Assembly (NCBI GenBank): GCA_016868105.1 | Contig: VGIA01000010.1 | Span: forward strand, 1 to 39,749 | Origin: Betaproteobacteria bacterium | GTDB lineage: Bacteria; Pseudomonadota; Gammaproteobacteria; Burkholderiales; SG8-39 | DNA length: 39,749 nt | Reading direction: 5' to 3' | Part shown: positions 29,259-39,014 of the stretch, one piece after another | Position numbering within the stretch: position 1 is the first letter of the stretch | Layout of the letters: each line of letters starts with the position of its first letter | Made by a program: the position numbers and the translations under genes | The notes under the pieces: model-generated | Database searches by the model: none | Seen by the model: the letters and a program-made list of their open reading frames with translations, nothing else | Told to the model about the DNA's origin: nothing

Positions 29259-33397
<4,139 letters not shown>

Positions 33398-33401
<4 letters not shown>

Positions 33402-34639
33402 GCGGTTCCCGGCAACGCATCGCGTTCCGCAACGCGGCGCTGTTCGACAGCCGCGCCGGGGTGATGCGCCCCGGCGCCACGGTGGTGGTGGAAGGGGGCT
33501 TGATCGCCGGGGTCGAGTTCGGCGCGGTGACGGTCGACGACGCGCTGGTGCACGACCTTGCGGGCAGGGCGCTGCTGCCGGGCCTGATCGACGCCCATGT
33601 TCATGTCACCGCGGTCAGCCACGACGTCCTGCGCCTGGCGCTGACGCCACCGTCCCTGATCACTGCGCAGTCCAAGGAAGTCCTGGAAGGCATGCTGGCG
33701 CGCGGCTTTACCTCCGTGCGCGACGCCGCGGGCGCCGATTTCGGCCTCGCCGAGGCCGTGGAGCGCGGCCTGTTCGCCGGCCCGCGCCTGTTCATCTCCG
33801 GCCAGCCCCTGTCGCAGACCGGCGGCCACGGCGACGTGCGGCCCAAGGGCGCACGCAGCATGATCTGCACCTGCGCGGGCCTGGGTCTCTACGGCGCCAT
33901 CGCCGATGGCGTCGGCGAGGTGCGCAAGGCCGCGCGCGACCAGCTGCGCAACGGCGCCAGCCAGATCAAGGTCATGGCCGGGGGCGGGGTGATGAGCCCC
34001 ACCGACCCGATCGAGGGCGCGCAGTATTCGATGGAAGAGCTGCGCGCTGCCTGCGAGGAGGCCGAGGCCGCCGGGACTTACGTCATGGCGCACGCCTACT
34101 CGCCCAGTGCCATCGAGCGCGCGGTGCGCGCCGGGGTGCGCTCGATCGAGCATGGCAACCTGCTGGACGAGGCGGCGGCGCGGACCATGAAGGCCTGCGG
34201 CGCGTTCCTGGTGCCGACCCTGGCGACCTACGCGGCGCTGGCGGAGGAGGCCGGCGGCCTGAACGTTTCGCCAGCGCAGCGGGAGAAGCTGCGCCGAGTC
34301 CAGGACCGCGGCATCGAGGCGATCCGCATCGCCAAGGCCGAGGGCGTGCCGATCGCCTTCGGCACCGACCTGCTGGGCCACATGCACCCCCGGCAGGCGA
34401 CGGAGTATGCGCTGCGGGCGCCGGCGCTCAGCCCGGCGGAAATCCTGCGGGGTGCGACCAGCATCGCCGCCGACCTGCTCCAGCAGCCGGGAAAGATCGG
34501 CGTCATCGCGCCCGGAGCCTATGCCGACCTGGTGGTGGTGGAAGGCGACCCGACGCAGAGCCTGCAAATGCTAACGGCCCCGGGAGTGGGGCCGTTGGCG
34601 GTCATGAAGCAGGGCCGGTTCTACCTCAACCGGCTCTAG
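33398..34639 (+). CDS. Metal-dependent amidohydrolase (imidazolonepropionase/prolidase-like)
   Basis: Amidohydrolase-superfamily protein of 413 residues. Metal and catalytic residues appear in order: His67 and His69 (IDAHVHV), Lys191 ([12 protein letters not shown], the likely carbamylated lysine), His232 (VMAHAYS), His252 (SIEHGNLLD) and Asp324 (FGTDLLG). This Lys-containing group includes Xaa-Pro/Arg/Lys carboxypeptidases and other peptide or amide hydrolases. I choose the GTG at 33398, which forms a GTGA overlap with the ftsB stop and begins at family-like sequence ([13 protein letters not shown]). No signal peptide is seen. Its place in a pyrG-kdsA-eno-ftsB unit is unusual and probably incidental. 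It ends 9 bases from the convergent solute-binding protein gene. Confidence 0.9.
34571..34598 (+). other. Strong hairpin inside the amidohydrolase 3' end
   Basis: AACGGCCCC (34573-34581) and GGGGCCGTT (34588-34596) form a perfect 9-bp stem with a 6-base loop; a G-T and a C-G pair can extend it to 11. It lies about 40 bases before the stop codon, at the junction with a convergent gene. No T-run follows, so a classical terminator is not supported. It could protect mRNA ends or pause RNA polymerase. Confidence 0.5.
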
Positions 34640-34648
34640 GCGGAACCG

Positions 34649-36232
34649 CTAGCTGCCGCCGCCCACGCGCGTGAAGCGCGACTGGTGCCGGTCGTCGGCG
34701 CTATGCACCGCGGTGACGCCCTTTTTCATCGCCCAGGGCCGCAACTGGTGGTGCAGCGGGATGTAATAGGCCTCATCCCGCGTCTTCTCCAGCGCCTCCT
34801 TGAGCAGCGCATCGCGCGCCTTGGGGTCGGTCGCGATCTTGATGGCGTCGATGGTGTTGTCCAGCTTGGGATCGCTCACCCGCCCCTGGTTGAAGTTGCC
34901 GTCCGCGCCCGTGGTCTTGGTGCGCACCAGCGACTGCAAGGTGTAGAGCGCGTCGAAGGTCGCCACGCCCCAACCCAGCAGATAGGCGCTGGAGTCCATG
35001 TTCAGGATCTTGGGGATGAAGTTGGCGAACGGCATGGAATTCAGCTTCACCGTCACGCCCGCCTTGGCCCACATGCCCACCAGCGCCTGGCAGATCTTCT
35101 CGTCGTTGACGTAGCGGTTGTTCGGGCAGTCGAGCGTGACCTCGAAGCCGTTTGGGTAACCCGCTTCCGACAGCAGCTTCTTCGCCGCCGCGACGTCCAC
35201 CTTCGGGAACAGGTCGATCGCCTTGGAGTGGCCGTGCACGCCCGGGGCGACCATGATGCCCGCCGGGATCGACAGGCCGCGCATGGTGACGCGCTTGATC
35301 GCCTCGCGATCCACGGTCATGTTGAGGGCCCGGCGCACGCGCACGTCCTTGAAGGGGTTCTTGCCCTTGACATTGGAGTACTTGAGCTCGTCGTTGTGCT
35401 GGTCCATGCCGATGAAGATGGTGCGCACCTCATGGCCGTCCAGCACCTTGAGCTTCGCATTGTTGCGCAGGCGCTCGACGTCCTGCACCGGCAGGTCGGT
35501 GACCAGGTCCACGTCGCCGGCGATCAGCGCGGCGACGCGGGTGGCGTCGGCCTTGACCGGGTTGTAGGTGACCTCGGTGACGTTGCCATCCAGCTTGCCC
35601 CACCAGCCCTTGTTGACCTCGAAGGCGATGTTCTTGTCCGGCGACCAGCCCTTGATCATGTAGGGGCCGGTGCCGTTGACATTGCGCGAGGCGAAGGTCT
35701 CCTCCTTCTTCTTGTAGTCCTGGACGTTGGTCGACTTGGTCTTCTCGGACCAGGCCTTGCTCATGATGCGGAAGTCGGTGATGTTCCGCAGCAGCACCGG
35801 CACCGGGCCGGAGAGGATGAAGTCGACGGTGAAGTCGTCGATCTTCTTCACTTCCTTGATGCCGGTGACGTAGATCTGCATCGTGCCCTGCGGCTGCTGG
35901 ATGCGGCCGAACGAGAACACCACGTCGTCGGCGGTGAAGGGCGAGCCGTCGTGGAACTTGACGCCCTTGCGCAGGTTGAAGCGGTAATGGGTGTCGGACA
36001 GCTGCTTCCAGCCGGTGGCGAGCGCAGGCTCCACCTTGTAGTCCTTGGTGTAGCGCACCAGGCCCTCGTAGGAGTGCTGCAGGATGGCGTTGGTGGTGGC
36101 ATGGTTTTGCGAGTGCACGTCCAGCGTCAGGATGTCGTTCTGGGCCGCCCATTTCAGCGGCGCGGCCTGCGCGGCGCCGGGGCCCAGCGCGGCGGCGACC
36201 GCAGCGGCCATCAGGATGGATCTGAATGTCAC
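34649..36232 (-). CDS. Peptide/nickel-type ABC transporter solute-binding protein (SBP family 5)
   Basis: Periplasmic binding protein of 527 residues. Translation probably starts at a GTG (36232), which has a perfect AGGAGG (36241-36246, minus strand) 8 bases upstream. The signal peptide VTFRSILMAAAVAAALGPG...AQA would be cleaved before APLKWAAQNDILTLD. Family 5 features are the SYEGLVRYTKDYKVEPALAT segment, WKQLSDTHYRFNLRKGVKFH, DVVFSFGRI and GTGPYMIKGW. No permease or ATPase gene adjoins it. The partial ABC operon at the left end of the window is 34 kb away and on the other strand, so a shared transporter is possible but unproven. Divergent from the dioxygenase-like gene. Confidence 0.94.
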   Translation of the reverse strand: MTFRSILMAAAVAAALGPGAAQAAPLKWAAQNDILTLDVHSQNHATTNAILQHSYEGLVRYTKDYKVEPALATGWKQLSDTHYRFNLRKGVKFHDGSPFTADDVVFSFGRIQQPQGTMQIYVTGIKEVKKIDDFTVDFILSGPVPVLLRNITDFRIMSKAWSEKTKSTNVQDYKKKEETFASRNVNGTGPYMIKGWSPDKNIAFEVNKGWWGKLDGNVTEVTYNPVKADATRVAALIAGDVDLVTDLPVQDVERLRNNAKLKVLDGHEVRTIFIGMDQHNDELKYSNVKGKNPFKDVRVRRALNMTVDREAIKRVTMRGLSIPAGIMVAPGVHGHSKAIDLFPKVDVAAAKKLLSEAGYPNGFEVTLDCPNNRYVNDEKICQALVGMWAKAGVTVKLNSMPFANFIPKILNMDSSAYLLGWGVATFDALYTLQSLVRTKTTGADGNFNQGRVSDPKLDNTIDAIKIATDPKARDALLKEALEKTRDEAYYIPLHHQLRPWAMKKGVTAVHSADDRHQSRFTRVGGGS

Positions 36233-36256
36233 GTTTTGTTCCTCCTCAGGATTGGG

Positions 36257-36277
36257 ATTCCGGGATGTTCCCGGGAT
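36257..36277 (-). promoter_or_regulatory. Inverted repeat in the leader of the solute-binding protein gene
   Basis: ATTCCGGGA and TCCCGGGAT, 9-bp arms (one G-T pair) with a 3-base loop, between the candidate -10 box (36288-36283) and the Shine-Dalgarno site. It could be an operator or a stem at the 5' end of the mRNA. Confidence 0.4.
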
Positions 36278-36282
36278 ACCCG

Positions 36283-36288
36283 AGTCTA
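36283..36288 (-). promoter_or_regulatory. Candidate -10 box for the solute-binding protein gene
   Basis: TAGACT on the minus strand, 50 bases upstream of the GTG start. No convincing -35. It stands back to back with a TATAAT on the other strand. Confidence 0.35.
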
Positions 36289-36300
36289 GCAGACCGGCCC

Positions 36301-36306
36301 TATAAT
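36301..36306 (+). promoter_or_regulatory. -10 box for the dioxygenase-SAF operon
   Basis: Perfect TATAAT, 32 bases before the ATG at 36339, giving a leader of about 26 bases that contains the Shine-Dalgarno sequence AGGGAGG (36327-36333). The -35 region is not consensus-like, which suggests an activator may be needed. Confidence 0.55.
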
Positions 36307-36338
36307 CGGAGGCTCCGGAATCGCCCAGGGAGGCCGGG

Positions 36339-37184
36339 ATGAGGCTCAAGCAAGCGCAGGTGGCACAGTTCGAACGGGACGGGTACCTGTTCTTCCCGGG
36401 CCATTTCAGCCCCTCCGAGGTCCAGGCCCTGGTGGATGAGGTGCCGGCCCTGTATGCCCAGCGCCGCCCGGAGAACGTGCGCGAGAAGACCGGGGACGCG
36501 GTGCGGACCAACTTCGCGGCTCACCTGTACAGCGCCCCTTTCGCCCGCCTCGCCCGCCACCCGCGCATGGTCGAGCCGGTGCGCCAGCTGTTCGGCGAGC
36601 CGGTTTACATGCACCAGTTCAAGATCAACGGCAAGCAGGCCTTCGACGGCGACCTCTGGCAGTGGCACCAGGACTACGGCACCTGGAAGAACGACGACCA
36701 GATGCCGGAGGCACGCGCGATGAACGTGGCCATCTTCCTGGACGAGGTCAACGAGTTCAACGGGCCGCTGATGTTCATCCCGGGCAGCCACAAGCTCGGG
36801 GTGCTGGAGGCGGCGCACGACACCTCCACCACCAGCTACCCGCTGTGGACCATCAACAACGACACCATCCGCAGGCTGACCGAGCGCGGCGGCATCGTCG
36901 CCCCCAAGGGGCCGGCGGGCTCCATGATCCTGTTCCACGGCTGCCTGGTGCACGCCTCGGCCTCCAACCTGTCGCCCTGGAACCGGGTCAGCGTCTACCT
37001 GTCGCTGTGCGCGGTGTCCAACCACATCCGTCGCTTCAAGCGCCCGGGCTACATTGCGCACCGCGACTTCACCCCCATCGAGTGCCTGCCGGACGACTGC
37101 CTGCTGAAGGACTACGTGGTGCCGCTGCCCTGGAAGGACGGCACCCCGGCCGAGGAACTGCGGGGCGCGCTGAAGGCTGCATGA
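36339..37184 (+). CDS. Phytanoyl-CoA dioxygenase (PhyH) family oxygenase, ectoine-hydroxylase-like
   Basis: A 281-residue non-haem iron, 2-oxoglutarate-dependent oxygenase. The iron triad is His110 and Asp112 (WQWHQDYGTW) with distal His205 (GCLVHASASN); Arg216 (PWNRVSVYLS) is placed to bind 2-oxoglutarate. The MHQFKINGKQAFDG strand and NGPLMFIPGSHKLG loop resemble ectoine hydroxylase EctD and related small-molecule hydroxylases more than human PhyH. It should hydroxylate a small polar substrate, which I cannot name. A good Shine-Dalgarno site supports the start. It is coupled by ATGA to the Rossmann-SAF gene and diverges from a peptide-type binding protein gene, so import, hydroxylation and oxidation of one compound is a fair hypothesis. 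Confidence 0.9.
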   Translation: MRLKQAQVAQFERDGYLFFPGHFSPSEVQALVDEVPALYAQRRPENVREKTGDAVRTNFAAHLYSAPFARLARHPRMVEPVRQLFGEPVYMHQFKINGKQAFDGDLWQWHQDYGTWKNDDQMPEARAMNVAIFLDEVNEFNGPLMFIPGSHKLGVLEAAHDTSTTSYPLWTINNDTIRRLTERGGIVAPKGPAGSMILFHGCLVHASASNLSPWNRVSVYLSLCAVSNHIRRFKRPGYIAHRDFTPIECLPDDCLLKDYVVPLPWKDGTPAEELRGALKAA

Positions 37185-38530
37185 ACCTTTACGCCAGGCT
37201 GCTGGAACGAAGGGACAAGCCGCTCCGCGTCGGCCTGATCGGCGCCGGGAAGTTCGCGGCGATGTACCTCGCGCAGGTGCCGCGCACCCCCGGGGTGCGG
37301 CTGGTGCAGATCGCGGACCTCGCGCCGGCGAACGCCAGGGCGAATCTGGAGCGCGTCGGATGGACCGCGGCGCAGATTGCCGCCACCCCCATTGTCGAGG
37401 ACTGGCAGAAGCTGGTCTCGCACCCGGAGATCGACATCGTCATCGAGGCCACCGGCAACCCGGTCGCCGCCGTCGAGCACATCCTGGAGGCCTTCCGCCA
37501 CGGCAAGCACGTGGTGAACGTGACGGTGGAGGCCGATGCGTTCTGCGGTCCGATCCTGGCGCGGCGCGCCGCGGCCGCGGGCGTGGTGTACAGCCTCGCC
37601 TACGGCGACCAGCCTGCGATCATCTGTGACCTGGTGGACTGGGCGCGGGCGGCTGGATTCCCGGTGGTCGCAGCGGGCCGCGGCCACAAGTGGCTGCCGC
37701 AATTCGCGCAGTCGACGCCGGAAACGGTGTGGGGCCACTACGGCCTGACCCCGGAGCAGGCGAAGCTGGGCGGCCTGAATGCAAAGATGTTCAATTCGTT
37801 CCTCGACGGCTCCAAGCCGGCGATCGAGTCGAGCGCGGTGTGCAACGCCACCGGCCTGACCCCGGCGCCAGAGGGCCTGCTGTACCCGCCGGGACCGGTG
37901 GACCGGATCCCGGAGCTGATGCGGCCGCGGTCGGAAGGCGGCGTGCTGCACCACAAGGGCCAGGTCGAAGTGGTGTCGTCGCTGGAGGCGGACGGTACGC
38001 CGATTGCCTACGACATCCGCTTCGGCGTGTTCGTGGTGTTCGAGGGCGAGACCGACTACATCCGACGCTGCTTTTCCGAGTACGGCGTGAAGACCGATGC
38101 CTCGGGCCGCTACGCCTGCCTGTACAAGCGCTGGCACCTGATCGGCCTGGAGGTCGGCATCTCGGTAGCCTCGGTTGGCATCCGTGGCGAGCCCACCGGC
38201 TGCGCCACCGGCTGGCGCGCCGATGCGGTGGCGGTGGCGAAGAAGGACCTGAAAGCCGGCGAAGTGCTCGACGGCGAGGGCGGCTACACCGTGGTGGGGC
38301 GCCTGATGCCCGCGGCCGATTCGCTGGCGCAGGCTTGCCTGCCGCTGGGCCTGGCGCACGGCTGGAAGCTGCTGCGGCCGGTGGCCGCCGGCCAGGCGCT
38401 CAGCTGGAGCGACGTGGCCGTCGAAGAGAACGTGCCGGCCGTGAAGCTGCGGCGCGAGCTGGAGGCCGCGGCGGAGGTGGCAGCCGCCGCAGGTAGTGCT
38501 ACAGCTGCCTATGGGCGGCGCGCGGCGTGA
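37181..38530 (+). CDS. Homoserine-dehydrogenase-like NAD(P)-binding protein with C-terminal SAF domain
   Basis: A 449-residue two-domain protein. The N-terminal Rossmann fold has RVGLIGAGKFAAMYL (GAGKFA at 21-26) and the EATGNPVAAVEHI segment as in homoserine dehydrogenase or Gfo/Idh proteins. The central part (SLAYGDQPAIICDLVDWARA and GRGHKWLPQF) is typical of a widespread but uncharacterised dehydrogenase group. The C-terminal region (about 350-425, AVAKKDLKAGEVLDGEGGY and LLRPVAAGQALSWSDV) is an SAF domain, also seen in altronate dehydratase, sialic acid synthase and FlgA. It starts inside the dioxygenase stop (ATGA). An Ala-rich tail ends the protein. The reaction is unknown. Confidence 0.85.
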   Translation: MNLYARLLERRDKPLRVGLIGAGKFAAMYLAQVPRTPGVRLVQIADLAPANARANLERVGWTAAQIAATPIVEDWQKLVSHPEIDIVIEATGNPVAAVEHILEAFRHGKHVVNVTVEADAFCGPILARRAAAAGVVYSLAYGDQPAIICDLVDWARAAGFPVVAAGRGHKWLPQFAQSTPETVWGHYGLTPEQAKLGGLNAKMFNSFLDGSKPAIESSAVCNATGLTPAPEGLLYPPGPVDRIPELMRPRSEGGVLHHKGQVEVVSSLEADGTPIAYDIRFGVFVVFEGETDYIRRCFSEYGVKTDASGRYACLYKRWHLIGLEVGISVASVGIRGEPTGCATGWRADAVAVAKKDLKAGEVLDGEGGYTVVGRLMPAADSLAQACLPLGLAHGWKLLRPVAAGQALSWSDVAVEENVPAVKLRRELEAAAEVAAAAGSATAAYGRRAA

Positions 38531-38612
38531 GGCTGCGCGCGGTGATGCTGTCCTTCCCGGTCGAGGCGTTGATCGCCTCCAGCATCGCCTTCCTGTCCAG
38601 CCCGCAGGCCGA
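38529..38612 (-). pseudogene. Remnant of a beta-hydroxyacid dehydrogenase gene
   Basis: About 28 codons on the minus strand read SACGLDRKAMLEAINASTGK and then DSITARSL. They resemble the C-terminal helical domain of 3-hydroxyisobutyrate-dehydrogenase-family proteins (the GLDxxxMLExINASxG segment). A stop codon stands directly upstream in the same frame (38615-38613), and the frame ends at a TAG near 38499 without the rest of the domain. The fragment lies directly downstream of the carboxymuconolactone-decarboxylase-like gene, in the same frame, and touches the end of the convergent SAF gene. It is best explained as the leftover of a deleted gene. Confidence 0.5.
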
Positions 38613-38624
38613 TCAAGCCGATGA

Positions 38625-39014
38625 TCACAGGCCGCGTTCCTTGAAGACCTCCCTCGCGCTGCGGAAGCTCTCCACCGCCGCCGGCACGCCGCAGTAGATC
38701 GCGACCTGCAGGAACACCTCGCCGATCTCCTCCTTGGTGAGGCCGTTGTTGAGCGCGCCGTTGATGTGCAGCTTGAGTTCATGGGTGCGGCCCAGCGCCG
38801 AGAGCATGGCGAGGTTGAGCATCGAGCGCGACCTGCGCTCCAGCCCGGGGCGGTTCCAGATCTCGTTCCAGCAGTAGGTATTCAGCAGCTCGACGAAGGG
38901 CCGGTTGAACTCGTCCACGCTCGCCATCGACTTGTCGACGTACTCGGCGCCAAGCACCTCGCGGCGCGTCTTCAGGCCGGCGGCGTAGCGTTCCTGGTGG
39001 CTTCTCTTGTCCAT
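38625..39014 (-). CDS. Carboxymuconolactone decarboxylase family protein
   Basis: A 129-residue protein with the CMD/AhpD-like fold, close to the PcaC type. Recognisable segments are QERYAAGLKTRREVLGAEYVD, LERRSRSMLNLAMLSALGR, HELKLHINGALNNGLTKEEI and EVFLQVAIYCGVPAAVESFR. The redox CxxC of AhpD is absent, in line with PcaC-like members. A strong Shine-Dalgarno AAGGAGGT (39021-39028, minus strand) 6 bases before the ATG fixes the start. PcaC decarboxylates 4-carboxymuconolactone in protocatechuate breakdown, but no other pca gene is nearby, so the substrate is unknown. It lies between two gene remnants. Confidence 0.92.
   Translation of the reverse strand: MDKRSHQERYAAGLKTRREVLGAEYVDKSMASVDEFNRPFVELLNTYCWNEIWNRPGLERRSRSMLNLAMLSALGRTHELKLHINGALNNGLTKEEIGEVFLQVAIYCGVPAAVESFRSAREVFKERGL

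Follow-up and report, generated by a model that had tools for sequence, protein, structure and literature searches.

We analysed a 39,749-nucleotide stretch of DNA from a Betaproteobacteria bacterium (GTDB order Burkholderiales, SG8-39), comprising positions 1 to 39,749 of contig VGIA01000010.1 of assembly GCA_016868105.1. This stretch, referred to below as the window, is contig 10 of 190 in a genome of 2.5 Mb (96% complete). Near its end lie two adjoining genes, encoding a PhyH-family Fe(II)/2-oxoglutarate dioxygenase (PhyH) and a DRL-type (probably DLO2) oxidoreductase with a Rossmann N-terminus and a C-terminal SAF domain (DRL), and many soil and water bacteria keep this pair adjacent. The pair suggests a route for breaking down a small compound, probably involving the hydroxylation of a small acid, as judged from sequences and structural models. 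With somewhat better than even confidence, we read the two genes as a catabolic (or salvage) module of two enzymes in one transcript unit, in which PhyH would hydroxylate a small acid and DRL would oxidise or rearrange the product. Both protein families are known, and the apparent novelty is a predicted hydroxylate-then-oxidise module with an uncharacterised DXR-like partner. The pair comprises the following features:

36328–36333, plus strand: Shine-Dalgarno-like GGGAGG of the PhyH gene (from the sequence)
36339–37184, plus strand: PhyH-family Fe(II)/2-oxoglutarate dioxygenase, 281 amino acids (Pfam PF05721, PDB matches and alignment)
37181–38530, plus strand: DRL-type (probably DLO2), predicted NAD(P)-dependent oxidoreductase with a C-terminal SAF domain, 449 amino acids (Pfam, 3upy and 3upl by sequence and fold, and tree)

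The PhyH stop codon is overlapped by the ATG of DRL, with four bases shared (ATGA). An initial annotation of this DNA had described the genes, their coordinates, the coupled pair and a receptor gene diverging from it, all of which agree with the open reading frame coordinates, the Pfam matches and the ATGA overlap. Long opposite-strand open reading frames (e.g. 37112–38782, minus strand) were set aside as high-GC shadows.

To survey the neighbourhood of DRL, named bacterial and archaeal genomes were scanned with a DRL alignment, and the best 80 loci of a longer list (65–88% identical) were retained. PhyH lies directly upstream of DRL on the same strand in 61 of these 80 loci (tblastn); in three of the 19 loci without it (L051, L055 and L107), less than 0.8 kb of sequence is available upstream. 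Gene calling yielded no DRL model in L063 or L071, and the analysis of gaps therefore covers 78 loci, 59 with PhyH; the commonest PhyH–DRL gap is exactly −4, seen in 21 of the 59 measured pairs. We also sampled genomes at two taxonomic levels. Within 150 genomes of the order, DRL (E ≤ 1e-60) is present in 40, and 22 of the 23 PhyH orthologs (at least 68% identity) adjoin it. The remaining ortholog, in G022 (C1:2405286-2406119, also L179), is 80% identical, with DRL far off on the same contig. Across 398 genomes of the phylum, all 18 PhyH orthologs (at least 58% identity) fall within the 36 DRL-bearing genomes and 17 adjoin DRL, with the other (G242) 6.4 kb away; of the 213 genera in this sample, 10 have PhyH and 26 have DRL. 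For these counts, paralogous PhyH matches at 43–44% were left out (second matches in G118, G016 and G165, and the sole match in G075), and G105 (DRL 37%, E 3.4e-58) missed the 1e-60 threshold. When the samples are combined (the window genome is common to both), there are 40 distinct genomes with a PhyH ortholog, of which all 40 carry DRL and 38 have the two genes adjacent. The initial annotation named a lack of recurrence in other genomes as one refuting outcome; the pair does recur, and the PhyH–SAF pair is a real recurring unit across many genomes, beyond chance arrangement.

In the sampled genomes the dependence is one-sided: DRL is often present without PhyH, and PhyH orthologs are confined to DRL-bearing genomes, which fits PhyH as a feeder of DRL. 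Mapping the presence of PhyH onto the DRL tree requires 16 changes, whereas shuffled labels need 27 on average, and well-supported branches force at least 10 of the 16; the association has been repeatedly broken or remade, and still persists. PhyH and DRL distances are correlated (r 0.63 over 35 pairs, 0 of 2000 permutations), as shared ancestry alone would also produce; in this test L056 was represented by the wrong PhyH paralog (26%), and L170 was excluded. Genera with the PhyH–DRL unit include the culturable Variovorax, Ramlibacter, Polaromonas, Limnohabitans and Reyranella, which makes deletion strains realistic.

The PhyH protein matches Pfam PF05721 with an E-value of 5.3e-36 (125.3 bits, gathering score 22). 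Residues H110, D112, H205 and R216 are invariant across 17 aligned sequences, a 28% paralog included, and are the predicted iron and 2-oxoglutarate residues; the complete HxD...H triad noted in the initial annotation is thus present (H110, D112, H205), together with the distal arginine R216. By sequence, the closest solved proteins are H11 (206 bits), GriE (179 bits) and EctD (136 and 132 bits). An AlphaFold model with a mean predicted local distance difference test score (pLDDT) of 74, and weak stretches that include residues 100–105 and 209–212, matches GriE with a Z-score of 28.5, H11 with 27–28 and EctD with 24–25.7, with unrelated PhyH enzymes at 21 or below. GriE, a leucine 5-hydroxylase, and H11, a trans-3/4-proline hydroxylase, are therefore the nearest solved relatives by both sequence and fold (31% and 36–38% identity, respectively), sharing with the window protein the fold, the iron triad and an HQFKIN stretch. 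Judging by these relatives, PhyH probably acts on a free amino acid or a comparable small acid. Neither GriE nor H11 is known to have a DRL partner. One Rhodoferax genome (L056:8122-8955) carries a second, divergent PhyH gene, 28% identical, that faces its PhyH–DRL pair.

The initial annotation had called PhyH ectoine-hydroxylase-like, which holds at the level of the fold, but GriE and H11 are closer. We consider it highly improbable that PhyH is an ectoine hydroxylase (EctD) or another enzyme of the hydroxyectoine pathway. It belongs to the same subfamily as EctD, with Z-scores to the EctD structures of up to 25.7, and scores 175.6 bits against the NCBIfam ThpD model, well short of that model's cut-off of 336.5 bits. 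We also compared it with the 17-residue EctD signature F-x-W-H-S-D-F-E-T-W-H-x-E-D-G-M/L-P (PMC5924519), and the corresponding window sequence, WQWHQDYGTWKNDDQMP, fits only 8 of the 15 fixed positions. Among the neighbours that were named, ectABC was not seen adjoining the pair. On the ThpD score and the signature, EctD was rejected as the identity of PhyH.

The DRL protein contains the Pfam domains DRL_cat (E 3.3e-52, 177.3 bits versus a threshold of 27), SAF (36.6 versus 21), NAD_binding_3 and GFO_IDH_MocA. In sequence searches its sole strong solved relatives are 3upy and 3upl, both Brucella DXR-II. The DRL model (pLDDT 85) superposes on 3upy across 412 residues at 31% identity with a Z-score of 43.9, and the next entry has a Z-score of 18.9. 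The initial description of DRL as homoserine-dehydrogenase-like applies to the Rossmann domain only; the whole protein is a relative of DXR-II/DRL, with which it shares a Rossmann N-terminus, a DRL_cat middle and a SAF C-terminus, as do DLO1 and DLO2 (PMC3847144). That 2013 source distinguishes DXR-II, the methylerythritol phosphate-forming branch, from DLO1 and DLO2, to which it assigns no known function.

That DRL is a second working DXR-II, making methylerythritol phosphate for isoprenoids with PhyH as a bystander, is almost certainly wrong. The DRL_cat domain and fold would suit it, but residues K191, K193, T229, R320 and Y322 of Brucella DXR-II are replaced in the window protein by R167, H169, P213, K316 and W318. 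In Brucella DXR-II, K191, K193 and T229 hold fosmidomycin and R320 is a dimer residue (PMC3847144); the set K191, K193, T229 and R320 is absent from window DRL. Moreover, the window genome has a canonical Dxr (TIGR00243, 469 bits), and four DLO members did not complement a dxr mutant (PMC3847144). In a tree of 82 sequences, 77 rows including the window separate from NGR234, Rhizobium, Listeria and Priestia, subject to a warning over long branches. In this same tree, long branches again applying, the window groups far from the DXR-II references with a Cupriavidus necator N-1 plasmid sequence, which is presumably the DLO2 entry for that strain in PMC3847144, although the record is unannotated. 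A working DXR-II would also leave the linkage to PhyH unexplained. An isoprenoid role for DRL was rejected on the canonical Dxr, the changed residues and the tree position; the PhyH partner is a further difference from the Brucella system. At the former lysine positions the motif reads RGHKW in the window clade and KGTKY in a sister set, and PhyH adjoins both.

The appeal of a rearranging DRL is that the closest characterised protein is an isomeroreductase and that DRL adjoins an IlvD-type dehydratase in two relatives. DRL would then act as an isomeroreductase or oxido-isomerase, shifting a carbon branch and the redox state of the PhyH-hydroxylated acid at once, in the manner of DXR-II and of the ketol-acid reductoisomerase that serves branched-chain amino acid synthesis. 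The homology to DXR-II extends over the whole protein, and on two plasmids without PhyH, L200:5347-9341 (Cupriavidus necator N-1) and L033:9402-13353 (Phaeobacter inhibens), the order beta-hydroxyacid dehydrogenase, IlvD/EDD dehydratase, DRL recalls the step order of IlvC and IlvD. We nevertheless regard this as rather unlikely: the fosmidomycin-holding residues are changed, the Rossmann/MocA-like N-terminus suits a plain dehydrogenase too, and just three IlvD/EDD matches, including a remote one on the opposite strand, occur in 139 wide sequences, a set where named and unnamed loci partly overlap (e.g. L046 and G143) and counts are not all independent. Distinctly unlikely, in our estimation, is a fuller version in which the DLO2 branch is a catabolic oxido-isomerase, PhyH hydroxylating a small organic or amino acid (perhaps branched), DRL moving the skeleton and a beta-hydroxyacid dehydrogenase finishing the conversion. 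If true, an isoprenoid-pathway fold would here serve degradation by rearrangement of the carbon skeleton, in spirit the opposite of what DXR does in isoprenoid synthesis.

We infer the chemistry, step order and direction of the module as follows. PhyH, a member of the H11/GriE/EctD group by family and fold, would hydroxylate a small free amino acid or related organic acid. DRL, using NAD(P), would then oxidise or rearrange the hydroxylated acid, as its domain content, coupling and co-occurrence suggest. Some genomes add a beta-hydroxyacid dehydrogenase (tartronate-semialdehyde-reductase/3-hydroxyisobutyrate-dehydrogenase superfamily), which might take the next 3-oxo or 3-hydroxy acid. Of the 139 wide sequences, 19 have such a dehydrogenase gene no more than 3 kb from DRL, 10 of them beside PhyH; these dehydrogenases belong to at least two distant subfamilies, are found both before and after DRL, and have 2-hydroxy-3-oxopropionate reductase as their best NCBIfam match, below its cut-off. 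In 38 of the 61 loci with PhyH, a GntR/FCD regulator gene lies before the pair; just one of the 19 loci without PhyH has such a gene. In many relatives this regulator would turn the pair on with its substrate; it is missing beside the pair in the window's lineage. Uptake, hydroxylation and then oxidation or elimination had been proposed in the initial annotation, and of this scheme a hydroxylase followed by an oxidoreductase stands as the best reading, but uptake by the adjoining receptor is unsupported.

Several observations weigh against a dedicated catabolic module. The genome samples are phylogenetically non-independent, and a single genus (g185) gives nine of the 18 PhyH genomes of the phylum sample. 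No GntR gene lies beside the window pair, and the best GntR matches in the genome are 26% identical. The flanks vary, with no universal transporter or third enzyme (TctC in 9 of 61 loci, DctP in 2 and the dehydrogenase in 10), and the pair often sits amid housekeeping genes (pyrG-kdsA-eno), which may indicate that its role is in core metabolism or repair rather than catabolism. The PhyH model has low-confidence stretches, the two named above among them. Finally, nucleoside demethylation is also known for PhyH-family enzymes, and relatives of PhyH demethylate 2'-O-methyl nucleosides (PMC12709175). By analogy, PhyH could remove an O- or N-methyl group as formaldehyde, leaving DRL to oxidise the freed alcohol or amine-bearing acid. 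We think this very unlikely, as both sequence and fold place PhyH closer to GriE and H11, which hydroxylate free amino acids, and a formaldehyde-handling gene was not recognised among the scanned neighbours.

Two known systems are reminiscent of hydroxylation by PhyH followed by oxidation by DRL. The CsiD–LhgO glutarate module combines a GntR/FCD regulator (CsiR), an Fe/2-oxoglutarate hydroxylase and an oxidoreductase acting on the new hydroxyl group, a parallel in working for which we claim no homology; CsiD falls outside the PhyH family, and LhgO is a flavoprotein. In Bacillus thuringiensis, the L-isoleucine 4-hydroxylase IDO acts with a 4-hydroxyisoleucine dehydrogenase, so that an amino acid is hydroxylated and then dehydrogenated, by protein families that are not known to be related to the pair. 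The initial annotation knew of no named pathway with this combination, and none turned up in the open-licence literature searched, where no description of the PhyH–DRL pair was found among the papers listed, nor in passages from PMC10663253, PMC12709175 and PMC6449761. The last of these places a PhyH protein and a 3-hydroxyacid dehydrogenase, with no DRL, in one predicted AphR-controlled operon set in Burkholderia, which is probably a different unit from the PhyH–DRL pair. The DLO families were separated in 2013 as oxidoreductases to which no function had been assigned (PMC3847144), and the PhyH partner and regulator make the question testable: with a partner of known chemistry, an amino-acid-type 2-oxoglutarate hydroxylase, an identified PhyH substrate would give the DRL substrate. 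New regio-selective amino acid hydroxylases would also be useful as biocatalysts.

The gene order in the window is pyrG, kdsA, eno, a small ftsB-like gene, an amidohydrolase gene, the receptor gene, PhyH and the Rossmann/SAF gene; the pyrG and ftsB-like names are presumed from the translations, and for enolase and KdsA (DAHP-synthase type) the family was verified on genes of relatives. The features around the pair are as follows:

33299–34639: amidohydrolase
34649–36232, minus strand: solute-binding protein, SBP_bac_5, with a signal-peptide-like start and a GTG start codon (Pfam E 2.9e-86)
36241–36246, minus strand: Shine-Dalgarno AGGAGG of the receptor gene, 8 nt upstream of the GTG at 36232 (from the sequence)
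36301–36306, plus strand: TATAAT, possible −10 element for PhyH–DRL, 32 bp 5' of the PhyH ATG
38625–39014, minus strand: PcaC-like carboxymuconolactone decarboxylase family protein, a neighbour also kept in L042 and L043
39343–39749, minus strand: dihydropyrimidinase/allantoinase-like gene, cut by the contig end

The receptor gene was counted as a member of the set in the initial annotation, which correctly noted its near-perfect Shine-Dalgarno site. It is matched in just two of the 80 named loci, L041 (71%) and L055 (28%); L004, which belongs to the window's genus, has a further match (85%). No OppB-type permease is encoded on its contig, and the 11 PF19300 matches in the genome are all on other contigs. 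The receptor was therefore rejected as a core part, and it is probably a local neighbour kept in close relatives only, outside the conserved module. We give little credence to the proposal that it imports the compound processed by PhyH and DRL. The divergent arrangement recurs in L041 and L004, and in L055 DRL is followed by genes for a dipeptide-type transporter and an amidase; set against this, most loci with the pair lack the receptor, relatives have DctP or TctC receptors or none, and the OppB-type permease is missing from the contig.

The receptor and PhyH starts diverge across a gap of 106 bp. One divergent promoter region, as first proposed, is unsupported: no sigma-70 hexamer pair was found in this gap, and the TATAAT has no −35 partner. 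The same hexamer lies upstream of PhyH in L041 and L046 (two of 79 other PhyH genes, with one of 395 control stretches inside the gene), and was spotted by eye before PhyH in L004. The gap also holds an imperfect inverted repeat with 12-nt arms and a 3-nt loop (36254–36280) and a perfect 8-nt repeat 51 nt apart (36256–36322), which are a possible operator.

In six of nine loci of genus g185, a DctP receptor gene lies on the same strand within 3 kb downstream of DRL, and a hormone-sensitive-lipase-type alpha/beta hydrolase is nearby in 17 of the 61 loci with PhyH and in four of the 19 without. DRL relatives without PhyH adjoin tripartite ATP-independent periplasmic (TRAP) transporters, small ‘putative quinol monooxygenases’, a dehydrogenase or an IlvD/EDD dehydratase. 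Taken together, these neighbours suggest catabolism of organic or sugar acids, in which PhyH would be one among several feeders of DRL. Genes for threo-3-hydroxyaspartate ammonia-lyase lie near the pair in four of 61 loci (L099, L101, L109 and L116; two of the four proteins were scanned), suggestive of 3-hydroxyaspartate as the product, and this candidate was dropped as four loci are too few to build on. A suspected TRAP gene in L169 proved to be LysR, and the neighbours of DRL (42%) in the Pelagibacter-like G493, namely EamA, PBP2 and RodA, give no clue to function.

Among more distant members of the family, DXR-II-type genes in L205 (Rhizobium sp. N324), L204 (Priestia) and L202 (Listeria innocua) adjoin sugar-binding regulators, sugar kinases, sugar transporters or phosphotransferase systems, and those in L205 and L204 are also near subunits of thiamine-dependent 2-oxoacid or acetoin-type dehydrogenase complexes. 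This context suggests a catabolic use of DXR-II, for example from methylerythritol phosphate through deoxyxylulose phosphate to acetyl-CoA. On a Deinococcus ficus plasmid (L203, 2313–8158), a distant DRL/SAF gene lies within an rfbF-lhgO-SDR-rfbC cluster (SDR, short-chain dehydrogenase/reductase), and part of the DRL family may act on nucleotide sugars.

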